Shown in pieces: positions 7,301 through 21,391 of a stretch of DNA of 21,495 nucleotides. Source of the DNA: a virus. The stretch spans positions 1 through 21,495 of the IMG/VR virus record IMGVR_UViG_3300020463_000168. One strand, given 5' to 3'. How positions within the stretch are numbered: the stretch's first letter is position 1; every line of letters begins with the position of its first letter. The notes under the pieces were generated by a model. That model ran no database searches. It was given only the letters and a program-made list of their open reading frames with translations, and had not been told where the DNA came from. The position numbers and the translations under genes are program-made.

Positions 7301-7301
7301 A

Positions 7302-8106: not shown

Positions 8107-8136
8107 TCAAAACATAGTGTTAAGGGAGATAGACAC

Positions 8137-8751
8137 ATGGATTATGTAAGACAGGCGCTTATGGACAAGTACACACTTCAGTTGTGCCATTATGAAATGG
8201 CTTTATATGACGGGCGGCAAACCCGTCTTCATGGAAAAATGCAACAATACTTCAATTCAACGCCAGTGAAAAATGCTTTTGCACGACTGATGTATATAGC
8301 AGCTAACGTAAAGTCACTTTACACTAAAACGGCTATTTCGCAAAAACTGCATATCACTCGTCAGGCCGCGCATCAGATGGTAAACGAGTGCTTGGATGGT
8401 GGGTGGATTATAGTCGACCAGGATGGTCGTTGCCCGACCTATAAGGCTACTGAAACCTTAATAAATGGCGTAAAATTGTATGCTGCATTTGCGCTTGATA
8501 GTGGCGAGAACATAGGGGTCGTCAATTACAGGCAGGCTATCAGCAACTACGATGCAGCTGAACGTAAAGCTGGTTTATATTGTCCAGACAATTCTTCAGT
8601 GTTAGATTTTAAGATTCCTGACACTGGAGAAGAAAGCGATGAGACAAGAGAGAAAACAGACAGCTTGCGAAACACTGTGGAACGTTGTTCCTTTGCACGG
8701 CCACACAAACAAACATCTGGAAGACCTGGCAGAATTGCAGCTAAAGCTTAA
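8137..8751 (+). CDS. Winged-HTH protein of unknown role
   Basis: This 204-residue protein is preceded by GGGAG eight bases before the ATG. Residues ~48-110 form a probable winged helix (LYTKTAISQKLHITRQAAHQ, then MVNECLDGGWIIVD), suggesting DNA binding, perhaps as an early regulator. The C-terminal ~50 residues are charged and low in complexity. The last 113 bases are shared, in another frame, with the next gene. I do not recognise the full-length family. Confidence 0.7.
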   Translation: MDYVRQALMDKYTLQLCHYEMALYDGRQTRLHGKMQQYFNSTPVKNAFARLMYIAANVKSLYTKTAISQKLHITRQAAHQMVNECLDGGWIIVDQDGRCPTYKATETLINGVKLYAAFALDSGENIGVVNYRQAISNYDAAERKAGLYCPDNSSVLDFKIPDTGEESDETREKTDSLRNTVERCSFARPHKQTSGRPGRIAAKA

Positions 8752-8959
8752 AGAAACAGAAAATTGGACTGCGGAACGGCTACACCTTGTATTTTTATGT
8801 TGTGAAATGATGAACCATAAAAATTTACCAACTAAAGTCAAAGAAAAAGCCTATGAGTTGGTTTTAACATATGCTTGTGCGTCAGATGCAATTTATCAGT
8901 ATAACACTGAGAAAATGGAAGACATTGTGCCAGTAAACCATTTGGGGAAAAGCAAATGA
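8639..8959 (+). CDS. Small hypothetical early protein
   Basis: This is a 106-residue protein of unknown function. The start is supported by GGAGAA seven bases upstream, inside the preceding gene, giving a 113-base out-of-phase overlap. Its stop overlaps the start of the RuvC-like gene as ATGA, which indicates coupled translation. The sequence is mostly helical and rich in charged residues (HLEDLAELQLKLKETENWTA), with no signal peptide or membrane segment. Confidence 0.65.
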   Translation: MRQERKQTACETLWNVVPLHGHTNKHLEDLAELQLKLKETENWTAERLHLVFLCCEMMNHKNLPTKVKEKAYELVLTYACASDAIYQYNTEKMEDIVPVNHLGKSK

Positions 8960-9432
8960 TTTGTTGGGGCATTGATCCCGGAGTTTCCGGCGCTATCTGC
9001 TGCTTCGATTACACTGAAGGGGCGGTCGATATATTCGACATGCCGATTGTAGAGGTGCGGGGCAAAAAAGAAGTAAGTCCCGTGCTCGTTAGAAACATCT
9101 TGCGTGATTTGCCAGGCCCGGTTTTTGTTGAGCGCGTCGGCGCACGACCTGGACAGGGCGTTTCATCCATGTTCAACTTTGGAAAGAGTTATGGAATGGT
9201 GCTGGGCGTCGTCGCTGCACTAGACTATTCGCTTCACTATGTCACCCCACAGCGATGGCAGCGTGACCTTCATGTAGAGACAGGGAAGGACGGAAACAGA
9301 ACAAGAGCAATGCAGCTGTTGCCAGCATATGCACAAGAGTTTAAACGTCGACGCGATGATGGTCGCGCTGACGCTGCTTTGATTGCATACTGGGGCGTTT
9401 CTTTTGGATTGAGTGTTGAAAGTAATGACTGA
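8956..9432 (+). CDS. RuvC-like Holliday-junction resolvase
   Basis: This 158-residue protein has an RNase H/RuvC fold. GIDPG carries D7 after the first strand, E59 lies in VFVERVGARPGQG, and the C-terminal DDGRADAALIA supplies D134/D135 and D139. These acidic residues match the two-metal active site of RuvC resolvases, and the length is near the usual ~170. It would resolve branched intermediates from phage recombination or clear DNA before packaging. It is coupled to the upstream gene by ATGA and followed by the PD-(D/E)XK nuclease. Confidence 0.85.
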   Translation: MICWGIDPGVSGAICCFDYTEGAVDIFDMPIVEVRGKKEVSPVLVRNILRDLPGPVFVERVGARPGQGVSSMFNFGKSYGMVLGVVAALDYSLHYVTPQRWQRDLHVETGKDGNRTRAMQLLPAYAQEFKRRRDDGRADAALIAYWGVSFGLSVESND

Positions 9433-10258
9433 CAAAATCAACAAAAACGGATTTGAGTTACACAACTTAAAGCATGTGAGTGTAAGCCAAGCTAATAAAT
9501 TCAGAGAAGCGCCGGACGCTTGGATTGCTGATAAGCTTTTTGGGTATAAATCGCCATACGGATATCCAGCGCTGCAAGGCTTGGCTGTAGAAAGCGCCGT
9601 AGAGATGCGCCTTTACAACGGCATCGTTGCTGATGATTGCGTAAGCCATGCGCTCGAGCGTTTTGCGTCAGATATTAAGTTGATGAAGGACAGCGCCGCA
9701 GAATTTGAAAAACGTGCTCCGATAATAGAACGCATGGTGCGCACAGCGCTTGAGCAACTTGTTGAGTTAGGTAAGCCAGAAGAGCCGCCCGTCGGCAGCA
9801 GGCAACACAATATAGGTATTCCTGTCAGATTTAAGAAGGGCGAGAACGGCAGAATAAACTGTATTGGCTTTTTGGACTTCTATTATCCAGACAAACAGCT
9901 TGTGATAGACCTTAAAACAACGGCAAAAGCGCCGTCAGGTTGGTCTACATCGCATGGTATCCAAGCAGCTGTTTACAAAAAAGCCGTTGAGGCAATGACT
10001 GGCAAGCCAACAACAGTAAAGTTTTTGTATGTTTTGACCCGGCAGAAAGACCCGTTTGTCTGGCTGACAATGGAAGACCCAGATTATTATTTGGACATAT
10101 TCAAACGAACAATTATATCGCTCGAAGCGCTGCTTTCTGTAAGCAGCGATGCGGCTGACCTTCTGAAAATCATACCACACAACCCAGATAGTTTTTACTG
10201 GAGTGGCGCTGAACACATAGCTGCTGAACTGTACGGCGATGACGGAAAAGCAGAGTGA
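9425..10258 (+). CDS. PD-(D/E)XK nuclease (RecB/Cas4-like)
   Basis: From the ATG at 9425 the protein has 277 residues; a GTG at 9413 would add four. The nuclease motifs are GFLD with D151, VIDLKTT with D162 and K164, and QAAVY (Q180, Y184), preceded by E56 in GLAVESAVE. Together these are the PD-(D/E)XK core of RecB/Cas4-type exonucleases. I see no clear iron-sulphur cysteine set. It overlaps the resolvase by eight bases and the following gene by 20. A likely role is processing DNA ends for recombination-linked replication; this is inferred. Confidence 0.85.
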   Translation: MTDKINKNGFELHNLKHVSVSQANKFREAPDAWIADKLFGYKSPYGYPALQGLAVESAVEMRLYNGIVADDCVSHALERFASDIKLMKDSAAEFEKRAPIIERMVRTALEQLVELGKPEEPPVGSRQHNIGIPVRFKKGENGRINCIGFLDFYYPDKQLVIDLKTTAKAPSGWSTSHGIQAAVYKKAVEAMTGKPTTVKFLYVLTRQKDPFVWLTMEDPDYYLDIFKRTIISLEALLSVSSDAADLLKIIPHNPDSFYWSGAEHIAAELYGDDGKAE

Positions 10259-10562
10259 CCTTTTTGAAACTATATTCTCCAGCAAAAAGAGAGGGGCAAT
10301 CAGAGATCCAGAACTACTTTTGTGGCAATCAGTGTTGATTACAGCGATCAACGATGCCGACAATCTGGACAGCAAAAGCAGGGTCAGAAGGCGCAATGCC
10401 GCAGATGCAATCATCTGGATGACAGAGAACAGTGAAGATTTTGCAACGGTCTGTGACCTAGCAAGAGAGAATCCCGATTACGCAAGTATGCGCTTCAAGC
10501 AATGGCTAGCTAATCGATACCCGGCCACACTCCTGGCCAACGTGTTCGCCTCACACGATTAA
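10239..10562 (+). CDS. Small hypothetical protein in replication operon
   Basis: This 107-residue protein starts inside the nuclease gene (20-base overlap). The central part (RVRRRNAADAIIWMTENSED, then FATVCDLARENPDYASMRFK) resembles a short helical module common in phage replication and regulatory regions, possibly a DNA-binding helix-turn-helix. I cannot name a family firmly. The start has only a weak ribosome-binding site, consistent with translational coupling. Confidence 0.65.
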   Translation: MTEKQSDLFETIFSSKKRGAIRDPELLLWQSVLITAINDADNLDSKSRVRRRNAADAIIWMTENSEDFATVCDLARENPDYASMRFKQWLANRYPATLLANVFASHD

Positions 10563-10594
10563 GGGGGCGCTAAACCTAAGAAAAGGAGGCTGTA

Positions 10595-11170
10595 ATGTCT
10601 TTAAATTTTTTAAGTATGGGTAGCGGATCACCGTTTATTCGGTTTTCTGTGGAAGACAACGAGTGGACACGCTCGTCTGTTGATGGGGATTTGATACCGA
10701 TTGATTGGAAGTCTCCAGTCGTCATCGATATCGAAAAAATACAGCAGGGCTGGTTAAAGCTGGCAGGCGGCAGAGATTGGCAGCCGTGGCCAGACAATAA
10801 CCCGACCAGTATTGAAAGGCCTAGCATGGAGCACAAGCAGGGCTTTGCTGTAAAGTTTTTCTCAACAAAGCTGTTTGATGACGAGCCTGTGCGCGAGTTG
10901 TCCAGTAGCGGTGCTGGCATGATTGAGTTTATCAAAGCGCTATACAAGGCAGCTGAACCTGGTTTTGGCGAAGGCAAGGTTCCTGTTGTCAAGATGCTCC
11001 CAGCTATCAAAGTGCGGATTGGCAAGGGTCCGAGCAAGATACCGCAGTTTGAAATTGTCGCATGGGTGGGGCGCCCAGCTGAACTGGATGGCGATAATGC
11101 TGAGGAAACGCCAGCCCCGGCAGCTGCTACCGAAGCAGCAGATGACGACTCTTTCGACGACGAAATCTGA
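10595..11170 (+). CDS. Probable ssDNA-binding protein with acidic tail
   Basis: This 191-residue protein is preceded by AAGGAGG. The body (residues ~10-155) is rich in beta-prone segments and tryptophans (FIRFSVEDNEW, DWQPWPDNNP, QFEIVAWVG). It is followed by an Ala/Glu-rich linker and a strongly acidic end, DDDSFDDEI. A compact domain, flexible linker and acidic tail are the layout of single-stranded DNA-binding proteins, and the gene sits between recombination nucleases and the primase-helicase. The terminal tip is not the canonical DDIPF. The function is inferred from layout and context, without a clear family match. Confidence 0.55.
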   Translation: MSLNFLSMGSGSPFIRFSVEDNEWTRSSVDGDLIPIDWKSPVVIDIEKIQQGWLKLAGGRDWQPWPDNNPTSIERPSMEHKQGFAVKFFSTKLFDDEPVRELSSSGAGMIEFIKALYKAAEPGFGEGKVPVVKMLPAIKVRIGKGPSKIPQFEIVAWVGRPAELDGDNAEETPAPAAATEAADDDSFDDEI

Positions 11171-11177
11171 TTTGCAG

Positions 11178-11197
11178 GGCGCAGCTACGGCTGCGCC
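11178..11197 (+). terminator. GC-rich stem-loop after the SSB-like gene
   Basis: GGCGCAGC (11178-11185) and GCTGCGCC (11190-11197) form a perfect 8-bp stem around TACG. It begins eight bases after the stop codon and is followed by TTTCGTCT. It resembles a leaky intrinsic terminator that would lower expression of downstream genes relative to the abundant binding protein. The T-tract is short, so readthrough is expected. Confidence 0.6.
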
Positions 11198-11221
11198 TTT
11201 CGTCTGCTTGGGAGGGCAAAA

Positions 11222-11668
11222 ATGAACCGTGATTGGAAAAAAGAAATACTGACGGCGGCATCGCTGGAGCCAGCAAGAAAGTCTTTCGATGCCCTGTGGA
11301 AAATTAGAATAGACTTGGCTAAAAGTGGTAATTTTGGACTGCGGTTAGGCGAGGTGGAAGAATGGGGAAACGCGGTTAAGCTCGTTGACTTTCATATTGT
11401 CGTGTATCACGCCAAGCCATTTTATGATGCAGGCGGCAATCCACATAAAGGTTATGCCGACAGATTTATAGGCCGCGAAGAAGATGCACATGTGGTCTGC
11501 AACAAGACTGGTAAGTCTTCATCTGTAACAAATGCGCAGCTAGGGGCTTTTTTTGTCATGGCGCAAAACCTTATTAACGAAATCCATTGGGATGGTTATG
11601 AGGACGGCGACATGGACTCTATCCATAATATCTGGTGCAGCACAATATCTGCAAGTGATTTAGTCTAA
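11222..11668 (+). CDS. Hypothetical protein before primase-helicase
   Basis: This 148-residue protein is preceded by GGGAGG. Its stop TAA shares one base with the ATG of the primase-helicase, so the two are translationally coupled. Visible segments include VKLVDFHIVVYHAKPFYDAG and DRFIGREEDAHVVC, suggesting a mixed alpha/beta fold. No catalytic motif is recognised. Its position suggests an accessory replication role. Confidence 0.7.
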   Translation: MNRDWKKEILTAASLEPARKSFDALWKIRIDLAKSGNFGLRLGEVEEWGNAVKLVDFHIVVYHAKPFYDAGGNPHKGYADRFIGREEDAHVVCNKTGKSSSVTNAQLGAFFVMAQNLINEIHWDGYEDGDMDSIHNIWCSTISASDLV

Positions 11669-13842
11669 TGGAAACAAAGTTTGATTGGGCAAAGTATTGG
11701 TATGACTTAGGCTTCAGCGTCGTGCCAGTACATTATGTGAAGCCTGACGGCAGTTGCAGCTGCCCGTTAGGCAAAAACTGCCCAAGTCCAGGCAAGCACC
11801 CTGCGCCGTCCAGGTGGAAGAATTACCAGGAAAAACGTGCGGACATGGACACACTGGAAATGTGGTTTGATGGCCGCTTCAAAGATTTTAACATAGGTGT
11901 GGTCACTGGCAGCATCAGTAACAACGTGTTTGTGGTGGATGTTGATATAGCTGAAGGCAAGCCGGGTGCTGACACGCTCGACGATTTGTGCATGGCAAAC
12001 GATGACTTGCCAGAAACAATGCAGCAGATTACAGGCAGTGGCGGCAAGCATTACTTCTTTAAAGCGCCTGACGGCATAAGCATCACTACAGGCAAGAACG
12101 TGCTGGGCGAAGGGATTGATACACGGGGCGAAGGCGGCTTTGTGGTTGTTGCGCCGAGCAATCACAAATCTGGAGGTGAATATATTGTTTCGCCGCACAT
12201 AAGGCACATCGAACAAAGCCCAGACTGGCTGCGCGAGATGGCGGTTATGTCAAATGGCTATGTCAACGGTGAGGGCAGCCTGCAAGACACAACGGTAAAT
12301 CGATGGGGCGAGTTAGCCGATGGCCGTGAAGGCTACATGGTCAAGCTCATTATTGGAACTATACGAACTTGGTGGGCGCAGAAGGGCGTTCTGCCGACGT
12401 TTGAGGAATTGGTAGATGATGCGTGGCCTACATACGAAGCAAAAGCGCTGGCCCGTGGCAAGAACTTGTCGATGGACAATAGGGGTATCGAGTTATTCGA
12501 GTACAAAGCCAGGTATCAGCTGAAACGTGCAAAGAATAAAGAACTTAGAATCCTTGACGGAGTACAGCCCGGCTCCGAAAAGGCAGAGCGGCAACCACCC
12601 AGTTTTCAGTCATCTGGGCCTCCCTATATGGTTGCACACTCTCAAACTGAAGCGGCAGGCCCGGTGCTTGATACGGCAAAACTGCCGCTTCTTTTATCTG
12701 ATTGGACGCTAAAACGATATGCAGGCGAGGCTCCAGCGCAAGAATGGCTTATAGAAAACATACTGCCGCGCCGTATTCCGGGGCTGATTGCAGCGATTGG
12801 CGGCCTTGGCAAGTCATACATCTTGCTGGATCTAGCTATGAAGGTAGCAGGCGGCGACCAAAACATGCACACAGAGATAGCGCTGGGCGGTAAGGTGGCG
12901 CACAACGGTAAAGTTGTGTTTCTGGGCGCAGAAGACAGCGCAGCGTCGATGCACAGACGCATTAACTCAATCGCTGACCCAACCTTACGCGACAGGGCGG
13001 CAGACAACCTCATTGTTGTGCCTATGCCGGACGCAGGCGGCGCGATACCGCTAATATCAGCGCACATGGGCGCTTACAGCGTCAGTCACGATTACTTAGA
13101 TATTCGCAAGCAGCTGCTTGACATGGGTGACGTAGCGCTGCTGGTCATCGACCCTTTACAGGCTTTTGCTCATGCCGATATCAACACAGACCCAGCAGCT
13201 GCGCAGTTCTGGTGGTCATTGATGTCTGAGTTATGCGTGGCAATCAACGGAAACATCTTGATTAGCCACCATATGCGCAAAGAAGGCACGTTCAGCATCA
13301 GGAAGTCAATGCAGGCCCGTGAGGCAATCCGTGGCACGACAGCGCTGGTGGACGGCGCCCGGTGGGCCTATGGCCTGTGGCAGATGCCAGAAGCCGATGA
13401 AATGGTAATAGCGCAGCGCATGGGGTTTGAGCCGGGGCTTGGCAACTGCGTTATGGGCGGGGTCGTCAAGGTCAATGATGCAGCGGATGCAACAACGAGA
13501 GCGTTTATCCGTGAGGAAAATGGTCTGTTGGTAGATAGATCGATGGAAGTTGACGCGATACTTGAGGCTAGCGCAAAGCTCGATACACAGCAAATAGAAG
13601 CAATATTCGATGAGGTAGACCGCAGATGGTCCAGCGATGAGCCGTTTGCAGCTGGTAGTAACACGACCAGAAGCTTTCTTGCATACCTCAAAACCGAATA
13701 CGGGATGCCGCCCCGGGCTGCAAAAGGATACATGCAAGCATGGCTTGACCAAGGATATCTGCAAAAAGCGACACACGATGCAGCAACAAAACGGCAAGGA
13801 ATCAGAGTAGCGAAGCGATTGGAGGGCAGACATGTCTATTAG
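11668..13842 (+). CDS. Primase-polymerase / RepA-like helicase fusion
   Basis: This 724-residue protein joins two replication activities. Residues ~5-190 form an archaeo-eukaryotic prim-pol domain: VVDVD with D91 and D93 as metal ligands, SGGKHYFF with H128, and IDTRGEGGFVVVAPS. A cysteine cluster near the N-terminus (CSCPLGKNC) may bind zinc. Residues ~355-600 form a RecA/RepA-type ATPase with Walker A GGLGKS (378-383, K382), Walker B LLVIDPL (D495) and a downstream SHHMRKEG sensor. A C-terminal winged helix is likely (~670-720). It would unwind and prime phage DNA, probably loading at the adjacent iteron array, with host polymerase extending. Confidence 0.9.
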   Translation: METKFDWAKYWYDLGFSVVPVHYVKPDGSCSCPLGKNCPSPGKHPAPSRWKNYQEKRADMDTLEMWFDGRFKDFNIGVVTGSISNNVFVVDVDIAEGKPGADTLDDLCMANDDLPETMQQITGSGGKHYFFKAPDGISITTGKNVLGEGIDTRGEGGFVVVAPSNHKSGGEYIVSPHIRHIEQSPDWLREMAVMSNGYVNGEGSLQDTTVNRWGELADGREGYMVKLIIGTIRTWWAQKGVLPTFEELVDDAWPTYEAKALARGKNLSMDNRGIELFEYKARYQLKRAKNKELRILDGVQPGSEKAERQPPSFQSSGPPYMVAHSQTEAAGPVLDTAKLPLLLSDWTLKRYAGEAPAQEWLIENILPRRIPGLIAAIGGLGKSYILLDLAMKVAGGDQNMHTEIALGGKVAHNGKVVFLGAEDSAASMHRRINSIADPTLRDRAADNLIVVPMPDAGGAIPLISAHMGAYSVSHDYLDIRKQLLDMGDVALLVIDPLQAFAHADINTDPAAAQFWWSLMSELCVAINGNILISHHMRKEGTFSIRKSMQAREAIRGTTALVDGARWAYGLWQMPEADEMVIAQRMGFEPGLGNCVMGGVVKVNDAADATTRAFIREENGLLVDRSMEVDAILEASAKLDTQQIEAIFDEVDRRWSSDEPFAAGSNTTRSFLAYLKTEYGMPPRAAKGYMQAWLDQGYLQKATHDAATKRQGIRVAKRLEGRHVY

Positions 13843-14032
13843 TCAAGGCGATGGCTCGATGCAGCAATTAATCAACAACAATCAATGCCCCAGATGCCAG
13901 ACAACCATGCCCCCGGTGGATGTTCATGGTCATCTGCAATGCTCTGTTTGTCATCTGGTTATCAGCGAATGTTGCCAAGGTGAACAAGCCTGTCATTTTG
14001 ATGTTTCAGACAAGTCAGGCAGCTTGAAATGA
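13832..14032 (+). CDS. Small zinc-ribbon protein
   Basis: This 66-residue protein starts 11 bases inside the primase-helicase gene, with GGAGGG well placed upstream. It contains CPRC and CSVC pairs (about 16 residues apart) in a zinc-ribbon arrangement, plus CC and C/H residues further on. It probably binds DNA, RNA or a protein partner in replication or transcription; this is inference. Its stop overlaps a possible downstream 48-codon frame as ATGA. Confidence 0.75.
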   Translation: MSISQGDGSMQQLINNNQCPRCQTTMPPVDVHGHLQCSVCHLVISECCQGEQACHFDVSDKSGSLK

Positions 14033-14175
14033 CTTACGGAAATGGAACGGAAATGAACGGAAGTATTACGGAAGTAAAACCCCCATACCCCCAGGCGTTT
14101 ACTTCCGCAACGCCACCTTGGCGGTTGGCGAGGCGGTGCGTAACGCTGAACCGGGAGGTATGGCGTGGCTGGTAA
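14029..14175 (+). CDS. Possible 48-residue gene overlapping the iteron array
   Basis: An ATG at 14029 overlaps the zinc-ribbon stop as ATGA and opens 48 codons to TAA at 14173-14175, overlapping the next gene by 11 bases. The product begins MTYGNGTEMNGSITEVKPP and ends VWRGW. No strong ribosome-binding site is visible. The iteron-like repeats fall inside the frame, so it may be translated only incidentally. Confidence 0.3.
   Translation: MTYGNGTEMNGSITEVKPPYPQAFTSATPPWRLARRCVTLNREVWRGW
14036..14078 (+). repeat. Iteron-like direct repeats (candidate replication origin)
   Basis: Four head-to-tail copies of ACGGAARTR start at 14036, 14047, 14057 and 14068, spaced 11, 10 and 11 bases, so all face the same side of the helix. 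They lie just downstream of the prim-pol/helicase gene. Iterons with helical-turn spacing are typical initiator binding sites in theta-type replicons. The origin assignment is inferred. Confidence 0.6.
14069..14107 (+). other. 10-bp stem-loop joined to the iteron array
   Basis: CGGAAGTAAA (14069-14078, part of the last iteron) and TTTACTTCCG (14098-14107) pair perfectly over 10 bases around a 19-base C-rich loop containing two runs of five Cs. A smaller hairpin CGCCA-CCT-TGGCG follows at 14111-14123. It could expose single strands for priming at an origin, or act as an RNA structure. Confidence 0.6.
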
Positions 14176-14773
14176 GTGGAGTAAAGCAAGGCAAAAGCCA
14201 AGGGATTTAGCCTATAACGCTAGAACGTCACCCGATATGTGGGGCGACCATAGAGGTAAAGCGTTAAATGCAGCTGTGCAAAGCTTGGATCAGGTTGCTC
14301 GACAGATGGAGCAGAAGTGGGGCTATGGCACGTTAGAGCGCCTTGCATCACCTGACCTTGCTGCAAAGTTTTACCGAGCAAAAGAAAATCTGCAGGCAGC
14401 CTGTGATGGCGATGACCATAACCTTGTTATTCAGAAGTGTGAGAACATGGCAAAGGGCTGGCGGTTGCTCGATAGGAAAGCAACAGAAGCAGGCTGTAAG
14501 CCGCTAGACGAGCGTGTAGTGCTTCATACGGCAGATAGTGGGCAGAAGTACGCTTTTACCAATGAAAGCGGCCTGTATAAGCTTATTGCGGATAAATACG
14601 GACCAGATGTGCGTGTCATGTCTTTTGATGAAGTCACGCGGATTATGGAGGACTGGCACAAGTCAAACACCTTGTTGAACGGTATCAAAGATGCGTTTCC
14701 CGGCAGCGAGGTAACAAAAATTAACCCAAAGTCAGACGGAAAGGATTTGTTCAATGACGAAATACCATTCTAA
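14165..14773 (+). CDS. Unknown replication-region protein with SSB-like DEIPF tail
   Basis: This 202-residue protein starts at GTG, with GGGAGG six bases upstream; an ATG at 14160 is out of frame and stops after 16 codons. The body is mostly helical (ALNAAVQSLDQVARQMEQKW) with a possible small domain at ~110-165. The last residues, DLFNDEIPF, closely match the acidic C-terminal tip (DDDIPF) by which bacterial SSB recruits PriA, RecQ, RecO, Exo I and other partners. No OB-fold is evident, so it may mimic or compete with host SSB, or be a divergent binding protein. It overlaps the next gene by 20 bases. Confidence 0.65.
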   Translation: MAGKWSKARQKPRDLAYNARTSPDMWGDHRGKALNAAVQSLDQVARQMEQKWGYGTLERLASPDLAAKFYRAKENLQAACDGDDHNLVIQKCENMAKGWRLLDRKATEAGCKPLDERVVLHTADSGQKYAFTNESGLYKLIADKYGPDVRVMSFDEVTRIMEDWHKSNTLLNGIKDAFPGSEVTKINPKSDGKDLFNDEIPF

Positions 14774-15107
14774 ACCAGCGAGGCAGCTTGCGCTTGAGCA
14801 GGCAATCACCTTGACCACACAAAAACGAAATCGTGAGTATGGTGAGCCAAAAGAAAATTTTGAACGGACAGCGGCTATGTTAAACGCCTATTTAGGGAAG
14901 CGCCTTGTTGATCCCCTGGGCGCGGCTGATGTGGCAATGATGGGAATTGTGCTGAAGATGGGCAGGCTGGCAGAAAATCAGGACAGCCCGGACAGCTGGC
15001 GTGACGTCGCTGGTTATGCAGCGCTTGGTTTCGAGATTACCCACCAGCCAAAAAAACGAGGCAGGCCAATCGGCAGCCGGAACAAAAAAACAGCCTTGCC
15101 CAAGTAA
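14754..15107 (+). CDS. DUF6378-like (MazG-like) protein with AT-hook tail
   Basis: This is a 117-residue protein. Residues ~20-95 (REYGEPKENFERTAAMLNAY, VDPLGAADVAMMGIVLKMGR, DSPDSWRDVAGYAALGFE) match the small all-helical phage family I know as DUF6378, whose acidic residues and length recall MazG-type nucleotide pyrophosphohydrolases. The tail KKRGRPIGSRNKK contains an AT-hook-like GRP core, suggesting DNA association. Substrate and activity are not established. It is last in the rightward operon, and its stop codon lies in the loop of the terminator of the opposing cassette. Confidence 0.7.
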   Translation: MTKYHSKPARQLALEQAITLTTQKRNREYGEPKENFERTAAMLNAYLGKRLVDPLGAADVAMMGIVLKMGRLAENQDSPDSWRDVAGYAALGFEITHQPKKRGRPIGSRNKKTALPK

Positions 15108-15117
15108 GGCAAGGCTG
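15084..15117 (-). terminator. Intrinsic terminator of the leftward cassette
   Basis: On the - strand, CAGCCTTGCC, the loop TTACTTG and GGCAAGGCTG form a perfect 10-bp stem, immediately followed by seven Ts (15090-15084). This is a textbook Rho-independent terminator for leftward transcripts. It overlaps the 3' end of the rightward gene ending at 15107, so it marks the convergence of two operons. The + strand version lacks a T-tract. Confidence 0.9.
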
Positions 15118-15119
15118 TC

Positions 15120-15143
15120 AGCCGGGGCATTTATGGCCCGGCT
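15120..15143 (+). terminator. Second GC-rich hairpin between convergent operons
   Basis: AGCCGGG (15120-15126) and CCCGGCT (15137-15143) form a perfect 7-bp stem with a 10-base loop, just downstream of the rightward operon. ATTGATTAAAT follows, without a proper T-tract. It may terminate or stabilise the rightward transcript; the evidence is weaker than for the adjacent leftward terminator. Confidence 0.4.
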
Positions 15144-15333
15144 ATTGATTAAATGGCGGAAGCGGTTGAAAGGGTTTTGCCTCTTCGGCCCACACACGCA
15201 GCAACTTATAATCCCGGTCAGCTGCGTCTACATTGGCCCGGGCTACGCCATCACTTGCGCAGCCGCGCCAAGTAAAGGCAATTTCTGGGGCGTCGCCTTC
15301 TATCTCGACCCAGATGTGATGACGTTCAGTCAT
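15142..15333 (-). CDS. Small hypothetical protein (last gene of cassette)
   Basis: The ATG at 15333 gives 63 residues and overlaps the upstream stop by eight bases; an ATG at 15345 is a possible alternative, and both lack a strong ribosome-binding site. The sequence (HHIWVEIEGDAPEIAFTWRG, then KLLRVWAEEAKPFQPLPPF) suggests a small beta-containing domain. Function is unknown. It is the last gene before the leftward terminator. Confidence 0.6.
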   Translation of the reverse strand: MTERHHIWVEIEGDAPEIAFTWRGCASDGVARANVDAADRDYKLLRVWAEEAKPFQPLPPFNQ

Positions 15334-15514
15334 TGTGATCTTCATGGTCGATGGCCTGCATTTTTGTTTCTTCCATTGCTTCTTCATAACTCCATTCATC
15401 TGTAGTCATTACATGCCAACTATTGCAGTTTGGGCAGCGCTCATCTTGTTTGCTTGATTGCCAGTGATGGTTACAATTTCCACAGTCAAAACCATTCATT
15501 AACCCCTCAGCCAT
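15326..15514 (-). CDS. Zinc-ribbon mini-protein
   Basis: The ATG at 15514, with AGGTGG six bases upstream, gives 62 residues and overlaps the previous stop by eight bases. CGNC and CPNC, about 15 residues apart, form a classic four-cysteine zinc ribbon (FDCGNCNHHW, DERCPNCNSW), followed by an acidic tail. It may be a nucleic-acid or protein-binding adaptor; partners are unknown. Confidence 0.75.
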   Translation of the reverse strand: MAEGLMNGFDCGNCNHHWQSSKQDERCPNCNSWHVMTTDEWSYEEAMEETKMQAIDHEDHND

Positions 15515-15746
15515 GATAAACCACCTTTCTGCCTTCGACATATTCAGACAGCGGAATGACAAACTCGTCCGGCTCTTCGTCCGGCTCCATTCCGCTTTTA
15601 ATTTGATTGCTGCGCAATTCTTGAAAATCTGCGTTCAACTCGCGCTGCGCTTCTTCCTTTGTTTCGTAAGTGAACGGATTGCCGTCATCATCTTTTTCGC
15701 ACTGCCATCCGTCGCAAATAGTGTCGAACACTCGTACAAAAGCCAT
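15507..15746 (-). CDS. Small acidic hypothetical protein
   Basis: This 79-residue protein has a strong AGGAGG ribosome-binding site. It begins MAFVRVFDTICDGWQCEKDD, with one Cys pair, continues with a charged helix (KEEAQRELNADFQELRSNQI) and ends in an acidic segment (EPDEEPDEF). The DNA-mimic-like acidity is notable, but no family is recognised. Confidence 0.75.
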   Translation of the reverse strand: MAFVRVFDTICDGWQCEKDDDGNPFTYETKEEAQRELNADFQELRSNQIKSGMEPDEEPDEFVIPLSEYVEGRKVVYHG

Positions 15747-15757
15747 TTGTGATCCTC

Positions 15758-15853
15758 CTATCTAATGCCGAGCGCAGCGCTAATGATAAGCGCTGCGCAA
15801 ACAACCGCAAACAAGCCCAGCAGGGCCAGTATGTCAAAAATCCAACCCCACAT
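15758..15853 (-). CDS. 31-residue single-pass membrane mini-protein
   Basis: An ATG at 15853 overlaps the stop of the upstream gene as TGATG and opens 31 codons to TAG (15760-15758). The product, MWGWIFDILALLGLFAVVCA followed by ALIISAALGIR, is almost entirely one hydrophobic helix with a short Arg end. AAGAGG lies about 10 bases upstream. The overlap and consistent hydrophobicity support a real gene: a small inner-membrane peptide, perhaps toxic, holin-like or exclusion-related. Confidence 0.65.
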   Translation of the reverse strand: MWGWIFDILALLGLFAVVCAALIISAALGIR

Positions 15854-16398
15854 CAACTTAATGCCTCTTGGCGCTGCTTGAGGTGCTCTTGCCAAGCAGC
15901 GTTATGCTTGTCTCGTCTTTCGCGCTGCAAAGTCTTCCACTGCTCATTATCAAATTCCCAGCTTATCTGTGCTCTTAATGCGCTGGCCATCACCCGGGAC
16001 GCTTTAGCCATTATTGCCCTTATGAGCCAGTAAGCGTCTTTGGTAACCCAGTTCTCAACCTCGCAGCTTTGATAATCTAAACAGAGACACATGTTATAAA
16101 TGTCTGCTGCGCTTAACTGGTGGCGTCCTACTTTTCTGGAAAGCCCGACCGCAACGTCTATAAGGTCGTCTTGTAGCATGTCTGGGCTGTCTGGATATCT
16201 GGCTTCAATACTTTCGATATTTCCCCGGGCCAGTATTTCGGCGGCCGTGTGTGCCTCCAGCGATTTATCAAAACCGCATTTTATCTCGCGGTGTTCTACC
16301 ATGTTCCAGCAATGCGGGTTGTCTATATGGACGCGGCCGCTAAAAGCCCATTTGCATATTTCAGCGATATGCTCGGGTTGTACTAAATAAGCACTCAT
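15853..16398 (-). CDS. Hypothetical protein, largest gene of the leftward cassette
   Basis: This is a 181-residue protein with GGAGA well placed before the ATG. It is helical, with several Cys/His residues (CKWAFSGRVHIDNPHCW, EHREIKCGF, DIYNMCLCLDYQSCEVENW) and a highly charged C-terminal helix (TLQRERRDKHNAAWQEHLKQ). The Cys/His pattern is not a clear zinc finger. Function is unknown. It is coupled by TGATG to the downstream 31-residue membrane peptide. Confidence 0.75.
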   Translation of the reverse strand: MSAYLVQPEHIAEICKWAFSGRVHIDNPHCWNMVEHREIKCGFDKSLEAHTAAEILARGNIESIEARYPDSPDMLQDDLIDVAVGLSRKVGRHQLSAADIYNMCLCLDYQSCEVENWVTKDAYWLIRAIMAKASRVMASALRAQISWEFDNEQWKTLQRERRDKHNAAWQEHLKQRQEALS

Positions 16399-16549
16399 TT
16401 TGATTTCTCCATTTTATCAAGGTTGCTGCCTCGTCAGGCCCGGACCACAACGCCCGGACGACACCCAGCAGCGGACAGCTGCAGGGTGTTTCGGCTAATG
16501 TTTGTCTTTGGTTTCCACAAAATGGACATGCTGCTTCCACAGTTCCCAC
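16361..16549 (-). CDS. Doubtful overlapping frame with CPFC motif
   Basis: A GTG-initiated frame of 62 codons contains CPFCGNQ and CSC, a possible zinc-binding pattern. It overlaps the upstream gene by 55 bases and the downstream one by 38, and passes through a strong hairpin. No good ribosome-binding site precedes the GTG. It is listed because it fills the only sizeable gap in the cassette, but it may be non-coding. Confidence 0.25.
   Translation of the reverse strand: MGTVEAACPFCGNQRQTLAETPCSCPLLGVVRALWSGPDEAATLIKWRNQNECLFSTTRAYR
16461..16489 (-). other. Strong hairpin inside the leftward cassette
   Basis: ACACCCAGCAGC (16461-16472) and GCTGCAGGGTGT (16478-16489) pair over 12 positions with one A-A mismatch around GGACA. 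It sits in the 96-base gap between two cassette genes. No T-tract follows on the - strand, so an attenuator, processing site or mRNA stabiliser is more likely than a terminator. Confidence 0.5.
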
Positions 16550-16665
16550 AGTTCAGCTTTAAGCTTTTCATCCGCGCGAATGTTGAAAATGAATTTTTCC
16601 TGTATGGTGTCCATAAAAAACTCGAACGACGCTAGCAACTTTTTTTCTTTTGTCTGCTCCATCAT
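16495..16665 (-). CDS. Small helical hypothetical protein
   Basis: The ATG at 16665 overlaps the upstream stop as ATGA, with AAGGG upstream, and gives 56 residues; a longer frame from 16776 would run through the preceding gene and is less likely. The sequence (MMEQTKEKKLLASFEFFMDT, then DEKLKAELWELWKQHVHF) is mostly one or two amphipathic helices. Function is unknown. Confidence 0.65.
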   Translation of the reverse strand: MMEQTKEKKLLASFEFFMDTIQEKFIFNIRADEKLKAELWELWKQHVHFVETKDKH

Positions 16666-16907
16666 TGACAGCCCTTTGTAATCACATGCATCGCCTGACG
16701 CAGCTGCGGCCCGTCTAATCCGTTTTTTGATGCAACTTGGCAGGCTATATCTACCAGCGACACTGCGTCGGCCCATGTCATACGGTACTTATATTTACCT
16801 CGCCTTACGTCCTGCTCCATCATTTCAAAATCAGCGACCAGCTGGGCGTCTGTCCAAGTTTCGATTAACTGGGCGGCCGCTGCCGCTTGTGTTTGATTGT
16901 CTACCAT
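16662..16907 (-). CDS. Small hypothetical protein
   Basis: This 81-residue protein has AGGGA five bases before the ATG and overlaps the preceding gene by seven bases. It begins with a Gln/Ala-rich helix (NQTQAAAAAQLIETW), continues with VADFEMMEQDVRRGKYKYRM and a helical C-terminus. It is soluble and alpha-helical. No family is recognised. Confidence 0.7.
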   Translation of the reverse strand: MVDNQTQAAAAAQLIETWTDAQLVADFEMMEQDVRRGKYKYRMTWADAVSLVDIACQVASKNGLDGPQLRQAMHVITKGCQ

Positions 16908-17119
16908 AAGCTTCCCTGCTCCTTCGCTTTGCTGGGGGTTGTTTCACGTTCTGCGCCGGGCAGCACGTACTGGACGCCTTCGGGCGTCAACTCTTCGGTT
17001 GGTTGCGGTGCGTCAGCGTACAGCCTGCACTCGAGGCAGGCTGTATCGCTTAAACCTTCGGCTACGATAAAATCACACTCCTCGCAGCCTTCCACTGGCT
17101 TTAGATTATGATTAGCCAT
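16901..17119 (-). CDS. Small Cys-pair (zinc-binding?) protein
   Basis: This is a 72-residue protein with GGAGGC before the ATG, coupled to the previous gene as TAATG. CEEC and CLEC, about 16 residues apart, suggest a compact zinc ribbon at residues ~12-32. The C-terminal half is Pro/Glu-rich and probably disordered (PQPTEELTPEGVQYVLPGAE). It is one of several CxxC mini-proteins in the cassette. Confidence 0.7.
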   Translation of the reverse strand: MANHNLKPVEGCEECDFIVAEGLSDTACLECRLYADAPQPTEELTPEGVQYVLPGAERETTPSKAKEQGSLW

Positions 17120-17481
17120 TAAGACGCCTCCGCATATTTTTTGCGGTATTTGCGGCCAATCTCTAAGTTTTTATGAAACTCTTTAAACCAAACAACCGTC
17201 GATTTTTTGGTTGTTACGTTTGTGCGCAGCCCTACATACTTTTGCATGAACTCGCGCTGCCCCAACAAACACCGTTCCCCGGGTTTGTAATATGCTGGGC
17301 CACGTATTGCCTCAACAATACGCGCCCGGTCCAGCCAGTCTTGCAGATTGTCATCTGTAAGATGCCCGATGTCTAAAGCCATGGTCATCTGGATAACAGT
17401 GTCCAGCGCTCTACATTCGCTGTCTGTTTCGGTCAGCTGCTTCCAATCTTTGCAGCCTTCAATATCCCAATTTATAGCCAT
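17119..17481 (-). CDS. Hypothetical protein of leftward cassette
   Basis: This is a 120-residue protein with GGAGGC upstream, coupled to its neighbours on both sides by TAATG overlaps. The N-terminal half is acidic and helical (LTDDNLQDWLDRARIVEAIR). The C-terminal half is basic (TNVTTKKSTVVWFKEFHKNL, then EIGRKYRKKYAEAS), suggesting a nucleic-acid-facing surface. No family is recognised. Confidence 0.7.
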   Translation of the reverse strand: MAINWDIEGCKDWKQLTETDSECRALDTVIQMTMALDIGHLTDDNLQDWLDRARIVEAIRGPAYYKPGERCLLGQREFMQKYVGLRTNVTTKKSTVVWFKEFHKNLEIGRKYRKKYAEAS

Positions 17482-17753
17482 TATGATGCCTCCCTTTTTT
17501 CGATGTTGTCTAAGTCATTAAGCGCTAGCTGGATGCGGTTGAGATAAACACGCAGCCCGTCTAATTCTGCGACAGCTGCCGGGCTAAAATTGTGATAAGC
17601 CACAATGCTAGCGAGGCGCTGCGCTGCTATCTTTGCTGTATTGGCGCTGTATTCCATTGCGCAGCCGTCGTGATTAGCGACTAACTGGGCAACTTGTGCG
17701 ATAGTCAGGCCATACTGGCGCTGCTCTATTAGCTGTTTTTCTTCTGGTGTCAT
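17481..17753 (-). CDS. Small hypothetical protein
   Basis: The ATG at 17753, preceded by GAGGG, gives 90 residues (MTPEEKQLIEQRQYGLTIAQ...); the longer frame from 17849 would overlap the upstream gene and has no better signal. It is predicted alpha-helical throughout, with heptad-like leucine/isoleucine spacing in the C-terminal half (DGLRVYLNRIQLALNDLDNI), so it may form a coiled coil. Function is unknown. Confidence 0.65.
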   Translation of the reverse strand: MTPEEKQLIEQRQYGLTIAQVAQLVANHDGCAMEYSANTAKIAAQRLASIVAYHNFSPAAVAELDGLRVYLNRIQLALNDLDNIEKREAS

Positions 17754-17760
17754 TTTTCCC

Positions 17761-18009
17761 TCACTGATACCGATGTTTAATGTCGTAGGCGGCGTCTTCA
17801 TCCGCCCAGATGTCGTGGTTAACCTCATCAGGCTCCGCGCAGCACTCAACAGGCTCCGCGTAATATTCAGCCTTTTCTTCTTTTCCTTTTTTCACGGCTT
17901 TACGCAGTTCTAGAGAAATCCTTTTTAAGTCCTCAATATCTGCCGCGACCTGTTCTGGTGTGCGCTTGGCAAGCTGACGCAGAGTGTGTTTTCTGACTTT
18001 TGCGTTCAT
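17761..18009 (-). CDS. Small charged coiled-coil-like protein
   Basis: The ATG at 18009 overlaps the upstream stop as TAATG, with GGAGGC eight bases before it, giving 82 residues. A basic helix (KVRKHTLRQLAKRTPEQVAA) leads to a charged helix (DIEDLKRISLELRKAVKKGK) and an acidic tail (ADEDAAYDIKHRYQ). Upstream in-frame ATGs at 18030 and 18078 are less likely. No family is recognised. Confidence 0.65.
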   Translation of the reverse strand: MNAKVRKHTLRQLAKRTPEQVAADIEDLKRISLELRKAVKKGKEEKAEYYAEPVECCAEPDEVNHDIWADEDAAYDIKHRYQ

Positions 18010-18227
18010 TATCTCTGCCTCCGTTGCCATATAATCTGGTCGGTGCTGTCCGAAAGCATAAAGGCGCAACCACAGCACAGCAGCGCAAGGTTGCCAGTAA
18101 GGGCAAATGCAAAAGCGTCATATGCCATGTCTGTAAAGCTCAGAAAAATAGCTGTCATAAAACAAGCAGCGCCGGACATGCCGAAAAAGAATGTTAGCGC
18201 TTTTGATATTGTGTTGAGTATCTTCAT
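18009..18227 (-). CDS. Two-helix membrane protein (first gene of cassette)
   Basis: The ATG at 18227 has GGAGAG well placed upstream and gives 72 residues; the frame extends to 18314 but without a better start. Two hydrophobic segments are visible, ~9-30 (KALTFFFGMSGAACFMTAIF) and ~35-57 (MAYDAFAFALTGNLALLCCG), followed by a hydrophilic, Arg-rich end (WQRRQR). Two-helix proteins of about 70 residues include class II holins, but no endolysin gene is nearby. A membrane-exclusion or other host-takeover role is equally possible. Confidence 0.7.
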   Translation of the reverse strand: MKILNTISKALTFFFGMSGAACFMTAIFLSFTDMAYDAFAFALTGNLALLCCGCAFMLSDSTDQIIWQRRQR

Positions 18228-18361
18228 GTTTATCTCTCCGTTTACATGTTGAAACCTGTGACCAACAAAGTCACAATAATATACTGCCAGATTGTCCGTA
18301 TATACACAAGACAAAAATCAACATAATCTACAAACAAGCAAAACAGCCGGATAAGCAGCAC
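18228..18361. promoter_or_regulatory. Divergent promoter region between cassette and terminase
   Basis: This 134-bp AT-rich region separates the leftward cassette from the rightward small terminase gene. On the - strand, TTGTGT (18309-18304), a 17-base spacer and CAGTAT (18286-18281) form a weak sigma70-like promoter. The operator-like dyad at 18257-18275 covers its predicted start site. No convincing rightward promoter was found, although CATAAT at 18322-18327 resembles a -10 box. Confidence 0.45.
18257..18275. promoter_or_regulatory. Operator-like dyad TGTGAC-N7-GTCACA
   Basis: This perfect 6-bp inverted repeat with a 7-base spacer lies at the presumed start of leftward cassette transcription. 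The spacing (nine bases between TGTGA and TCACA) is wrong for CRP. It may bind a phage regulator such as the repressor or Cro-like protein. Confidence 0.45.
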
Positions 18362-18814
18362 ATGGCAAACATCAAAACTCGCGGACCCAGCGAGCAGCAG
18401 CAGGCATTTATTGATTACCTTGTCAACAATGTTTCGACGCCTACAGAAGCAGCGCGACAAGCAGGGTATGCTCACCCAAAACAATCTGCTTATATATTGA
18501 CCCGGACACCTCACGTTATGGCGGCTGTGCGGCAGGCCAGACAAACTGTCTACCAATCCGAGCTAGCCAGTTTGTCTGTTGATACACTGAAGCGAGTGAT
18601 GCGCGACGACGATGCGCCAGCCTCGGCCAAGGTTTCAGCAGCGCGAACGGCGCTCGAGCTTGCCGGAGATATAGGCAAGGCAGCTGATGATCTAACAAGC
18701 AGCAAGCAGCTGGCCGAAATGTCGCCGGATGAATTAGCCAGTCTAATAGATAAATGGGAAGGCGAACGGGCCAGCCTTGCCACCGATATAACACCACCAG
18801 CAGATAAAACGTAA
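18362..18814 (+). CDS. terS: Terminase small subunit
   Basis: This 150-residue protein is probably the DNA-recognition subunit of the packaging motor. The N-terminal half has the helix-turn-helix arrangement of small terminases (QQQAFIDYLVNNVSTPTEAA, RQAGYAHPKQSAYILTRTPH, VMAAVRQARQ). A helical oligomerisation region follows (VSAARTALELAGDIGKAADD), then an acidic C-terminal helix that may contact the large subunit. The ribosome-binding site is weak. The large subunit is not in the window and presumably lies downstream of the tail-fibre region. Confidence 0.8.
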   Translation: MANIKTRGPSEQQQAFIDYLVNNVSTPTEAARQAGYAHPKQSAYILTRTPHVMAAVRQARQTVYQSELASLSVDTLKRVMRDDDAPASAKVSAARTALELAGDIGKAADDLTSSKQLAEMSPDELASLIDKWEGERASLATDITPPADKT

Positions 18815-19628: not shown

Positions 19629-19875
19629 TTTGCTGAAAGCAGATGGTTTTGATGACGCGATAATCGGGATGTGTCAGGTGCATGGTGAGCATGTTTATGC
19701 CTATGACTATGAAAAATGTATTGAAGTTTTGCAGCGTGACCAGGGTTTTTCTTACTCAGATTCAGTTGAGTACATGGATTTCAATGTTGCTGGCGCTTAC
19801 GTCGGCAGGCACACGCCAGTTTTTGTTCATATAGGCGAAACGGAAGAGGATGTGATAGATGGCGCAACCCCGTGA
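19621..19875 (+). CDS. Small conserved phage protein (DDAIIG...NVAGAYVG)
   Basis: From the ATG at 19621, which overlaps the previous gene by eight bases, the protein has 84 residues; the frame continues upstream to 19528 through other genes and is less likely to be used. DDAIIGMCQVHGEHVYAYDY, KCIEVLQRDQGFSYSDSVEY and MDFNVAGAYVGRHTPVFV match a short conserved alpha/beta protein type that I associate with marine phages, of unknown role. It is soluble, with no membrane segment. It overlaps the tail-fibre gene by 17 bases. Confidence 0.75.
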   Translation: MRDLLKADGFDDAIIGMCQVHGEHVYAYDYEKCIEVLQRDQGFSYSDSVEYMDFNVAGAYVGRHTPVFVHIGETEEDVIDGATP

Positions 19876-21391
19876 CTATTCGAGGCAGCATAATTTTAAC
19901 GATTTTGCTACAACAAGCCCGGCTTCACCATTGCCAGGGCAGCAAGTCGATAATGAATTAAATGCTGTTAAGCTTACGCTTGATGATTTAAACACAAATA
20001 TTGGCATTATTCAGCGCGATGACGGCAAGATCAGGAACCAGTCTGTCCACAAAGACGCCTTTGATGTTGATGCTTTAGCTCTAATTTCGTCTGGTAACTT
20101 CACTCCAAAGGGTGATTGGTCATCTGGTACTGCTTTTGCTGTTGGTGACATTGTTAATTTTAACAACGCCACTTATTATGCGACCTCTGCGCATACGTCT
20201 TCTAATGCTTTTCAAACAGATTTGAGTGCATCTAAATGGTTATTGATAGCTAATGCTGCTATTGCGAATACTGCTTCAGCGGTCGACAAGTTCGAGGGCG
20301 ATGGCAACACGACAGCGTTTACACTTTCTTTTAGTTACACTGGAAATACAGATGCTTTAGTTTTTGTAAATGGCGCTTTGCGGAATCCCGGCGATGATTA
20401 CACTTTATCTGGCACAACAATTACTTTTGTAACTGCACCTTCTTCTCCGTCAGTTGCTGGTAACGAGAATGTTATTATTTGGGGAACGTCTGTCGTTGTG
20501 GCAGCTGCAAAAACAGCTGCGCAGTCTGCATCGTCAAATGCCCAGGCATTTAGAGACACAGCGCAAGACTGGGCCAGCAAGGTTAACGGCGATGTTGACA
20601 GCAGCGGCGAGTATTCTTCAAAAGCTCACGCGATAGGCGGCACTGGCGTTGACACAGGCACTGGCTCTGCAAAAGACTGGGCTACAAAAACTGGCGGAAC
20701 TGTAGGAAATAGCGGCGAATATTCTGCTAAACATTACGCAACAGATGCAAATGTCGGTACAGTTGCGACAAACATAACTAATGTAAATCTGGTTGGTGGG
20801 TCTATTAGTAACGTCAACACAGTAGCATCCAATATCTCAGCAATTGGCACAGCTTCCGCAAATGCAACACTAGCTGAGAACTACGCTACTAAAACAGACG
20901 GCACAGTGGAAACAAGTCCTGACCGTTACAGCTCAGAAGCACATGCTGTGGGTGGCACAGGCGTTACATCTGTTGTTGGGTCGGCCCGTGAGTGGGCCAT
21001 TGGCGGTGGGTCATCACCAAACGCTACCACAGCAGTTGATAGCGGCGGCGAGTTTAGTGCAAAAGGTTATGCCGTAGGCTCTATCAATCGTGGCTCATCT
21101 GGCGCACATTCTGCAAAGGACTGGGCAAGCTATACATCTGGCACTGTGGATGGCACTTTATTTTCTGCTAAATATTATGCAGAGCAAGCGGCAGCATCAA
21201 AAACAGAGTTCAGCAATATCTATCATGGCATTTCGAGTTCTGCGCCAACAGGCTCAGAGGTTGGGGCCGGAGACCTGTGGTTCGATTCCTCCAACAGTGT
21301 TTTAAAATATTACAATAACAGTAATCAGTGGGTAGCTGTTGAATCAGGTGCAACGGCTGGCTTTAGCATCGCAATGGCGATTGCTTTATAG
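19859..21391 (+). CDS. Modular tail-fibre / receptor-binding protein
   Basis: This 510-residue protein has an N-terminal anchor (~1-75: RDYSRQHNFNDFATTSPASP, then QQVDNELNAVKLTLDDLNTN), then a carbohydrate-binding-like module (~80-130: GDWSSGTAFAVGDIVNFNNA with the aromatic pattern of CBM5/12). A beta module follows (~145-210: FEGDGNTTAFTLSFSY, VFVNGALRNPGDDYTL), then about five repeats of a DWA..SGEYSAKxYA unit (~235-445) and a tip (GDLWFDSSNSVLKYYN). Such repeats form trimeric shafts. The protein probably attaches to the virion base and binds the host surface. It overlaps the upstream gene by 17 bases, with GAGGAT before its ATG. Confidence 0.9.
   Translation: MAQPRDYSRQHNFNDFATTSPASPLPGQQVDNELNAVKLTLDDLNTNIGIIQRDDGKIRNQSVHKDAFDVDALALISSGNFTPKGDWSSGTAFAVGDIVNFNNATYYATSAHTSSNAFQTDLSASKWLLIANAAIANTASAVDKFEGDGNTTAFTLSFSYTGNTDALVFVNGALRNPGDDYTLSGTTITFVTAPSSPSVAGNENVIIWGTSVVVAAAKTAAQSASSNAQAFRDTAQDWASKVNGDVDSSGEYSSKAHAIGGTGVDTGTGSAKDWATKTGGTVGNSGEYSAKHYATDANVGTVATNITNVNLVGGSISNVNTVASNISAIGTASANATLAENYATKTDGTVETSPDRYSSEAHAVGGTGVTSVVGSAREWAIGGGSSPNATTAVDSGGEFSAKGYAVGSINRGSSGAHSAKDWASYTSGTVDGTLFSAKYYAEQAAASKTEFSNIYHGISSSAPTGSEVGAGDLWFDSSNSVLKYYNNSNQWVAVESGATAGFSIAMAIAL
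20561..21190 (+). repeat. Imperfect repeats encoding the tail-fibre shaft
   Basis: About five imperfect units begin near residues 237, 273, 341, 378 and 421 of the tail fibre (DWASK, DWATK, NYATK, EWAIG, DWASY). Each leads into Y/FSxKxYA or SSxAHAxGGTGV. Two units contain the near-identical stretch coding for AHAxGGTGV. They are substrates for recombination-driven length variation. Confidence 0.7.

Follow-up and report, generated by a model that had tools for sequence, protein, structure and literature searches.

We propose that a leftward block of 12 small, overlapping genes (positions 15142-18227, minus strand) in the virus record IMGVR_UViG_3300020463_000168 is a moron-like accessory operon, whose messenger RNA is probably split into two messages by a predicted self-cutting hammerhead ribozyme. 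The record, analysed over its whole length of 21,495 bases (hereafter the window), may be a fragment of a virus genome. The block lies between the rightward replication genes and the small terminase gene, and its genes are named g1 to g13 in the order of transcription (g8, an open reading frame (ORF) over the ribozyme, is discussed below). An original prediction, made from the letters of the window, had delimited this block of about a dozen genes, its position between replication and packaging modules and its overlaps correctly, without mentioning the ribozyme. Judging from the comparison with related phages, the predicted ribozyme is the near-constant part of an otherwise variable operon. Cleavage in the cell, its effect on the mRNA and the roles of the proteins are what we infer from these data.

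The predicted hammerhead ribozyme

The ribozyme and its parts, listed from 5' to 3', are as follows, together with the ORF that overlies it.

16428..16495, minus strand, operon sense, between g7 and g9: predicted type II hammerhead ribozyme (Rfam RF02276)
16495-16493, minus strand: stem II, GCC
16492-16489, minus strand: GAAA
16489-16461, minus strand: stem III
16460, minus strand: C17
16459-16438, minus strand: stem I
16437-16431, minus strand: CTGACGA
16430-16428, minus strand: stem II, GGC
16361..16549, minus strand: ORF g8, GTG start, 62 codons, CPFC motif

The match to RF02276, the only one returned by an Rfam scan of the whole window, scores 53.7 bits (gathering cut-off 37; E 2e-9). The catalytic core is intact (CUGACGA, GAAA, the cleavage triplet GUC and the A15.1-U16.1 pair), and the arrangement is that of the type II permutation, stems I and III being closed by loops and stem II being open. 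The cut is predicted between 16460 and 16459. In the sister phage L003 (IMGVR_UViG_3300020401_000006), the closest relative, the hammerhead scores 56.1 bits and differs from that of the window by a compensatory exchange in stem III (A-U to G-C) and by a C-to-U substitution at N7, a free position of the core. On these sequence features, the predicted ribozyme is a further member of the known class of type II phage and bacterial hammerheads.

The same nucleotides are open over 62 codons in the g8 frame, with a CPFC motif, as if they encoded a thirteenth small zinc-ribbon gene and matched the RNA family by coincidence. We give this explanation almost no credence, because the frame is broken by internal stops in L003, where the second cysteine pair is lost and w = 0.71 (little constraint), and because the RNA match has the E value given above and is backed by covariation. 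The possibility of a zinc-ribbon or Lar-like anti-restriction gene was likewise rejected, since g8 has no Pfam or PHROG match and is interrupted in L003. We therefore judge g8 to be a spurious ORF.

About 35 relatives were collected by a terminase-profile scan of viral contigs, and 24 blocks, that of the window included, are complete. Of the 24 complete blocks, 21 contain a match to the hammerhead core plus stems, as do three incomplete blocks; all these matches lie on the cassette strand and inside the block. RF02276 is detected at or above its cut-off in relatives besides the window; the copies of L027 and L028 (30.9 bits) fall under it, and those of L024, L037, L039 and L042 are among the copies called by core-and-stem match, not by Rfam gathering score. 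All 20 distinct copies retain GAAA, NUH and CUGANGA. In stems I and III, 98.5% of the positions are paired, as compared to 57% (maximum 69%) when the 3' partners are shuffled; this percentage is not a probability, the copies being related, and no shuffle approached it. The stems covary, with up to six pair types per position, despite the sequence divergence of the 20 copies. A custom covariance model built from a MAFFT alignment captured seven pairs and was left unused in favor of the Rfam model and a direct parse of the stems.

Several observations weigh against our proposal. First, the minimum-energy fold of the window copy contains stems I and III, not stem II. Second, the score for pairing between loop I and the 3' tail (4.43) exceeds the shuffled mean (3.96) and stays below the shuffled maximum (4.51); such a pseudoknot is plausible in many copies (GUUGU/GCAAC in the window), its mean score lying within the shuffled range. 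This pseudoknot is frequent, not universal, in type II hammerheads. Third, the operons of L017, L018 and L043 are devoid of a ribozyme detectable with relaxed cores or Rfam, so the ribozyme appears dispensable to the slot; in both L017 and L018 the genes flanking the expected site overlap, leaving no gap. Fourth, none of the cassette proteins of the window has a known function.

The spacing between the ribozyme and its neighbor genes is strict. In each of the 21 family sites checked, 26-36 nucleotides (nt) separate the ribozyme from the next start codon downstream; in 18 of them, the upstream stop codon ends at -5 to +1, counted from the first base of the ribozyme. The TAG stop of g7 in the window (16497-16495) and the first base of the ribozyme have a G in common, and the g9 start codon lies 61 nt past the predicted cut. 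Since the flanking genes belong to several unrelated families on either side, the spacing is a property of the ribozyme, whichever genes lie beside it. At least 147 distinct hammerhead-like sites were obtained by scanning viral contigs with a pattern. Among the 147 listed, an upstream stop occurs at -6 to +3 in 75% (4% at random positions) and a downstream start 20-45 nt away in 80%; 59% of them satisfy both distance ranges, whereas the opposite strand gives 2% and random positions on the same strand give 1.4%. The genes beside these sites are small (median about 110 codons) and mostly without assigned function, the named PHROG matches being to anti-restriction proteins, HNH endonucleases and an antitoxin. 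Because this stop-ribozyme-start spacing is strict in the family and recurs at most of the listed sites, punctuation of the mRNA is our leading idea.

Arrays of at least seven consecutive hammerhead-like sites, with about one site for each gene, occur in the viral contigs L058, L076 and L090. Two contigs with a terminase only 29% identical have a minimal hammerhead-like site of 48 nt (L044:9647-9694 and L045:6167-6214), which suggests that the association extends past this phage group.

A real ribozyme could instead act on a single side of the cut, for instance through removal of the 5' end, with separate expression or silencing of the next gene as a result. We find this possible, if unlikely. 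It agrees with the fixed distance to the start codon, whichever gene follows, and with the HF1 and HF2 haloviruses, where a hammerhead sits 13 nt ahead of a helicase start codon (PMC3088659). The position of the upstream stop codon is equally tight, however, and L031, where two hammerheads (within 8030-8620) lie around a single 139-amino-acid (aa) gene, fits a two-sided processing. The RNA of this one gene, with 5'-OH and cyclic-phosphate ends, could be excised.

Genes are exchanged on both sides of the hammerhead, as expected if it were a DNA-level boundary or a recombination relic at cassette swaps, deprived of RNA function. This explanation is very improbable in our view for the following reasons. 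First, the stems are too diverged to offer much homology, yet their pairing and the core are maintained. Second, the hammerhead lies in the sense orientation, with strict spacing to stop and start. Third, 25 of 27 gene families are confined to one side of it (random mean 9), a supportive figure to which inherited gene order contributes and in which some families are shadow ORFs.

The accessory operon and its exchangeable genes

The credible genes are listed below with the ratio of nonsynonymous to synonymous substitution rates (dN/dS) against L003, where available, followed by the signals of the operon.

18009..18227, minus strand: g1, 72 aa, hydrophobic, apparently membrane-spanning, first gene of the operon, dN/dS 0.11
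17761..18009, minus strand: g2, 82 aa, charged, helical, replaced by an unrelated ORF in L003, absent from L004
17481..17753, minus strand: g3, 90 aa, four-helix protein, dN/dS 0.09
17119..17481, minus strand: g4, 120 aa, dN/dS 0.14
16901..17119, minus strand: g5, 72 aa, four-cysteine N-terminus and tail of about 32 aa ending in QGSLW, dN/dS 0.04
16662..16907, minus strand: g6, 81 aa, dN/dS 0.44
16495..16662, minus strand: g7, 55 aa, dN/dS 0.19
15853..16398, minus strand: g9, 181 aa, first gene past the ribozyme, dN/dS 0.13
15758..15853, minus strand: g10, 31 aa, single apparent membrane span, 90% identical in L003
15507..15746, minus strand: g11, 79 aa, strongly acidic (net charge -12), absent from L003
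15326..15514, minus strand: g12, 62 aa, zinc-ribbon-like (two CxxC, four cysteines), acidic (net charge -11)
15142..15330, minus strand: g13, 62 aa, dN/dS 0.32
18278..18283, minus strand: -10-like TATATT of the putative leftward promoter, weak -35, GGCAGTATaaT context
18258..18274, minus strand: dyad GTGAC-N7-GTCAC, just downstream of the -10
15089..15119, minus strand: intrinsic terminator (hairpin and T run), 13-bp stem, retained in L003

The genes are tightly packed throughout, through TAATG (g1/g2, g3/g4 and g4/g5), ATGA (g6/g7) and TGATG (g9/g10) junctions, three types that had been predicted and that are all present, and through overlaps of 7-8 nt (g5/g6 and g11/g12). The sole exception is the 96-nt gap between g7 and g9. 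For the nine genes shared with L003 (g1, g3-g7, g9, g10 and g13), dN/dS ranges from 0.04 to 0.44, the values for g10 and g13 being based on few changes; the comparison leaves out g2, g11 and g12, which have no counterpart in L003, and supports most of the 12 as genes. The start of g13 at 15330 was set by comparison with L003, a further ATG lying upstream at 15345, and g7 has an alternative in-frame ATG at 16665 that would add one residue.

The signals agree with those originally predicted. The terminator is the strongest of 14 terminator-like sites in the window (5.3 expected in shuffles). A second hairpin (15143-15120) lies directly before it and is kept in L003 with a compensatory change. 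A sigma-70 scan upstream of g1 found no promoter, but similar -10-like elements recur upstream of the block in many relatives, consistent with the weak promoter initially proposed. The operator-like dyad is identical in L003-L005, other relatives having different dyads at the same place, and is a candidate operator or 5'-untranslated-region hairpin. The block thus has a clear terminator of its own and a weak promoter with a recurring -10-like element.

The kinds of small proteins announced by the original prediction are also recognizable: zinc-ribbon-like (g12 and g5), acidic (g11 and g12), apparently membrane-bound (g1 and g10) and helical (g2 and g3). Neither these nor the other cassette proteins of the window could be assigned with confidence to a family through Pfam, PHROGs, NCBIfam or PADLOC, nor through Foldseek. 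The protein most widespread among relatives is g3 (12 loci), with an AlphaFold model that is a confident four-helix bundle (predicted local distance difference test, pLDDT, 85) without fold match in Foldseek. Homologues of g1 occur at six loci. The structure model of g9 was discarded as unusable (pLDDT 46); a distant homologue of g9 exists in Podoviridae sp. ctptF532, where the Rfam and relaxed-core searches found no ribozyme nearby. The g12 protein has weak Pfam zinc-ribbon matches, is absent from L003 and resembles proteins of L027, L028 and L039, and g5 is zinc-ribbon-like through its four cysteines.

In relatives (L019, L020, L039, L040, L041 and L042), several unrelated N-terminal domains are joined to the C-terminal tail of g5 (EELTPEG.Q.V.PGAER....QG.LW), which has a beta-clamp-like QGxLW at its end; one partner, in L039, is a g12-like zinc ribbon. 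Beta-clamp-like terminal motifs were found at 5 of 144 cassette C-termini versus 0 of 309 elsewhere; all five belong to one family, and we keep this as a lead only. Proteins starting with M..QLD[MI]F, a typical beta-clamp-binding motif, occur at L024:6147-6902 and L034:1945-2694 and among the cassette proteins of L032 and L035; the L024 and L034 proteins consist of this leader joined to the PHROG-757 methyltransferase.

The layout around the block is constant. In all 24 complete blocks we found the leftward orientation, a rightward gene pair at the left and the terminase at the right. The gene content, compared over 29 blocks as the original prediction had suggested, is strongly variable and departs from the strict conservation, with homologues of core function, that would have contradicted the original prediction. 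In the L003 block, g2 is swapped for another gene and g11 and g12 for a single one; the L004 block lacks g2, and distant relatives have few gene families in common with the window. The content differs even where the terminase is 98% identical, and no gene family is common to all relatives. From this variable content at a fixed site, we consider that the block is an accessory operon that changes from relative to relative. The fixed slot, own signals and fast-changing content are those of the independently controlled, separate operon that had been announced.

The original prediction had further proposed a host-takeover or anti-defence island, a role that data from relatives make plausible. A PHROG-757 DNA-methyltransferase relative is present in the slot of 17 relatives (17 of 29 blocks), not in the window; its close homologues are annotated as DNA (cytosine-5) methyltransferases, for instance in Labrenzia phage vB_LagS-V1. 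The L043 and L010 blocks encode a DUF6884 protein that also matches the PADLOC candidate PDC-M57A, and anti-restriction genes lie beside hammerheads elsewhere. On the other side, searches of Pfam, PHROGs, NCBIfam and PADLOC revealed no confident homologue of a known counter-defence protein among the cassette genes of the window. Hence, an anti-defence role of the window genes is plausible by analogy of position and neighbors. Core functions of the phage (in DNA metabolism, packaging or as lysis helpers) would account for the location of the slot, which in all complete relatives has replication genes on one side and packaging genes on the other, and the methyltransferase could act in packaging or replication. 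We regard such functions as unlikely, given the turnover at nearly identical terminases and the lack of a family present in all relatives.

The rest of the window is organized as follows.

6084-7715, minus strand: integrase, small helix-turn-helix-type ORF and repressor
8137-15107, rightward: replication module (RuvC-like resolvase, exonuclease-like protein, Prim-Pol/AAA protein, 202-aa protein, DUF6378)
11668-13842, rightward: Prim-Pol/AAA protein, within the replication module
15142-18227, minus strand: leftward block (g1 to g13)
18362-18814, rightward: small terminase gene
19859-21391, rightward: tail-fibre-like gene

The names integrase, resolvase and exonuclease come from reading the sequences, not from a family search. 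A left-truncated protein of at least 1949 aa (3-5852) matches PHROG 5143, of unassigned function, and a replication-module protein (10239-10562) has a clamp-binding-like start, MTEKQSDLF. Isolated phages gave no DNA match to the window, only distant protein matches.

Proposed processing of the operon RNA

Based on the data above, we propose that the block, at its fixed slot, would be transcribed leftward, with a promoter and a terminator of its own, and that its RNA would fold into the type II hammerhead between g7 and g9 and cut itself between 16460 and 16459. The upstream product would carry g1-g7 and finish with the hairpin of stem III, bearing a 2',3'-cyclic phosphate; the downstream product would carry g9-g13 and begin with a 5'-OH end 61 nt ahead of g9. 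By established hammerhead chemistry, the upstream RNA is left with a 2',3'-cyclic phosphate and the downstream RNA with a 5'-OH. RNase E decay that depends on the 5' end is poorly triggered by a 5'-OH, and hairpin ends with a cyclic phosphate withstand 3' exonucleases. Since both kinds of ends resist decay, uncoupling of the two halves is the likeliest effect of the cut, and different lifetimes and translation of the two messages would become possible. The genes would encode exchangeable small accessory proteins, most plausibly involved in host interaction or in countering defence.

Since the stop codon sits at the edge of the ribozyme, cleavage might be gated by translation: a terminating ribosome would cover stem II, GAAA and part of stem III, and the RNA would be cut only if the upstream gene is untranslated. 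The close fit of the stop codon, both in the family and at the listed viral sites, speaks for this mechanism, but the same geometry may reflect genome compaction alone, and we hold it to be rather doubtful. More tentative still is a general phage rule, by which type II hammerheads are translation-gated mRNA punctuation and the window cassette is one instance.

Splitting of the operon mRNA, the proposal that we prefer, can be set against known systems. Type II hammerheads occur in prophages, around genes of non-constant identity; a role in mRNA processing has been proposed, and cleavage was observed in vitro and in E. coli (Perreault et al. 2011, PMC3088659). The element described here resembles them in topology, core, Rfam model and phage context between small genes. 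In that work the ribozymes form clusters flanking varied genes, whereas here a single copy (two in L031) keeps one place in one opposite-strand operon throughout a group of phages, and its spacing was measured with random and antisense controls. In the Agrobacterium tumefaciens array around ardA, for which cleavage was shown in E. coli (PMC3088659), sense hammerheads also lie beside small accessory genes, one neighbor being an anti-restriction gene. That array has three ribozymes around individual genes, in contrast to the usually single mid-operon copy found here, and the window has no recognizable anti-restriction gene. Our operon also recalls the moron and early host-takeover cassettes of phages: these too have a promoter and a terminator of their own, are transcribed separately or in the opposite direction, and consist of tiny genes without assigned function that turn over fast. 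Unlike theirs, the mRNA of our operon carries a conserved predicted self-cleaving ribozyme. The role of prokaryotic hammerheads is an open question, and their flanking ORFs are small and non-conserved (review PMC6155905). Neither the near-constant place of a ribozyme in a variable operon nor a measured stop-ribozyme-start rule was found in this open-access literature (PMC3088659, PMC6155905).

This phage group thus offers a natural experiment on the role of the hammerhead, in which the place is kept and the genes are exchanged, three relatives lack the ribozyme and one has two. If the accessory genes counter defences, self-cutting RNA would join the ways in which phages express such genes. Should translation gating turn out to be true, the cut would occur only once upstream translation stops, for example upon host shut-off or defence attack, and the downstream accessory genes would then be freed as a hard-to-degrade 5'-OH mRNA.

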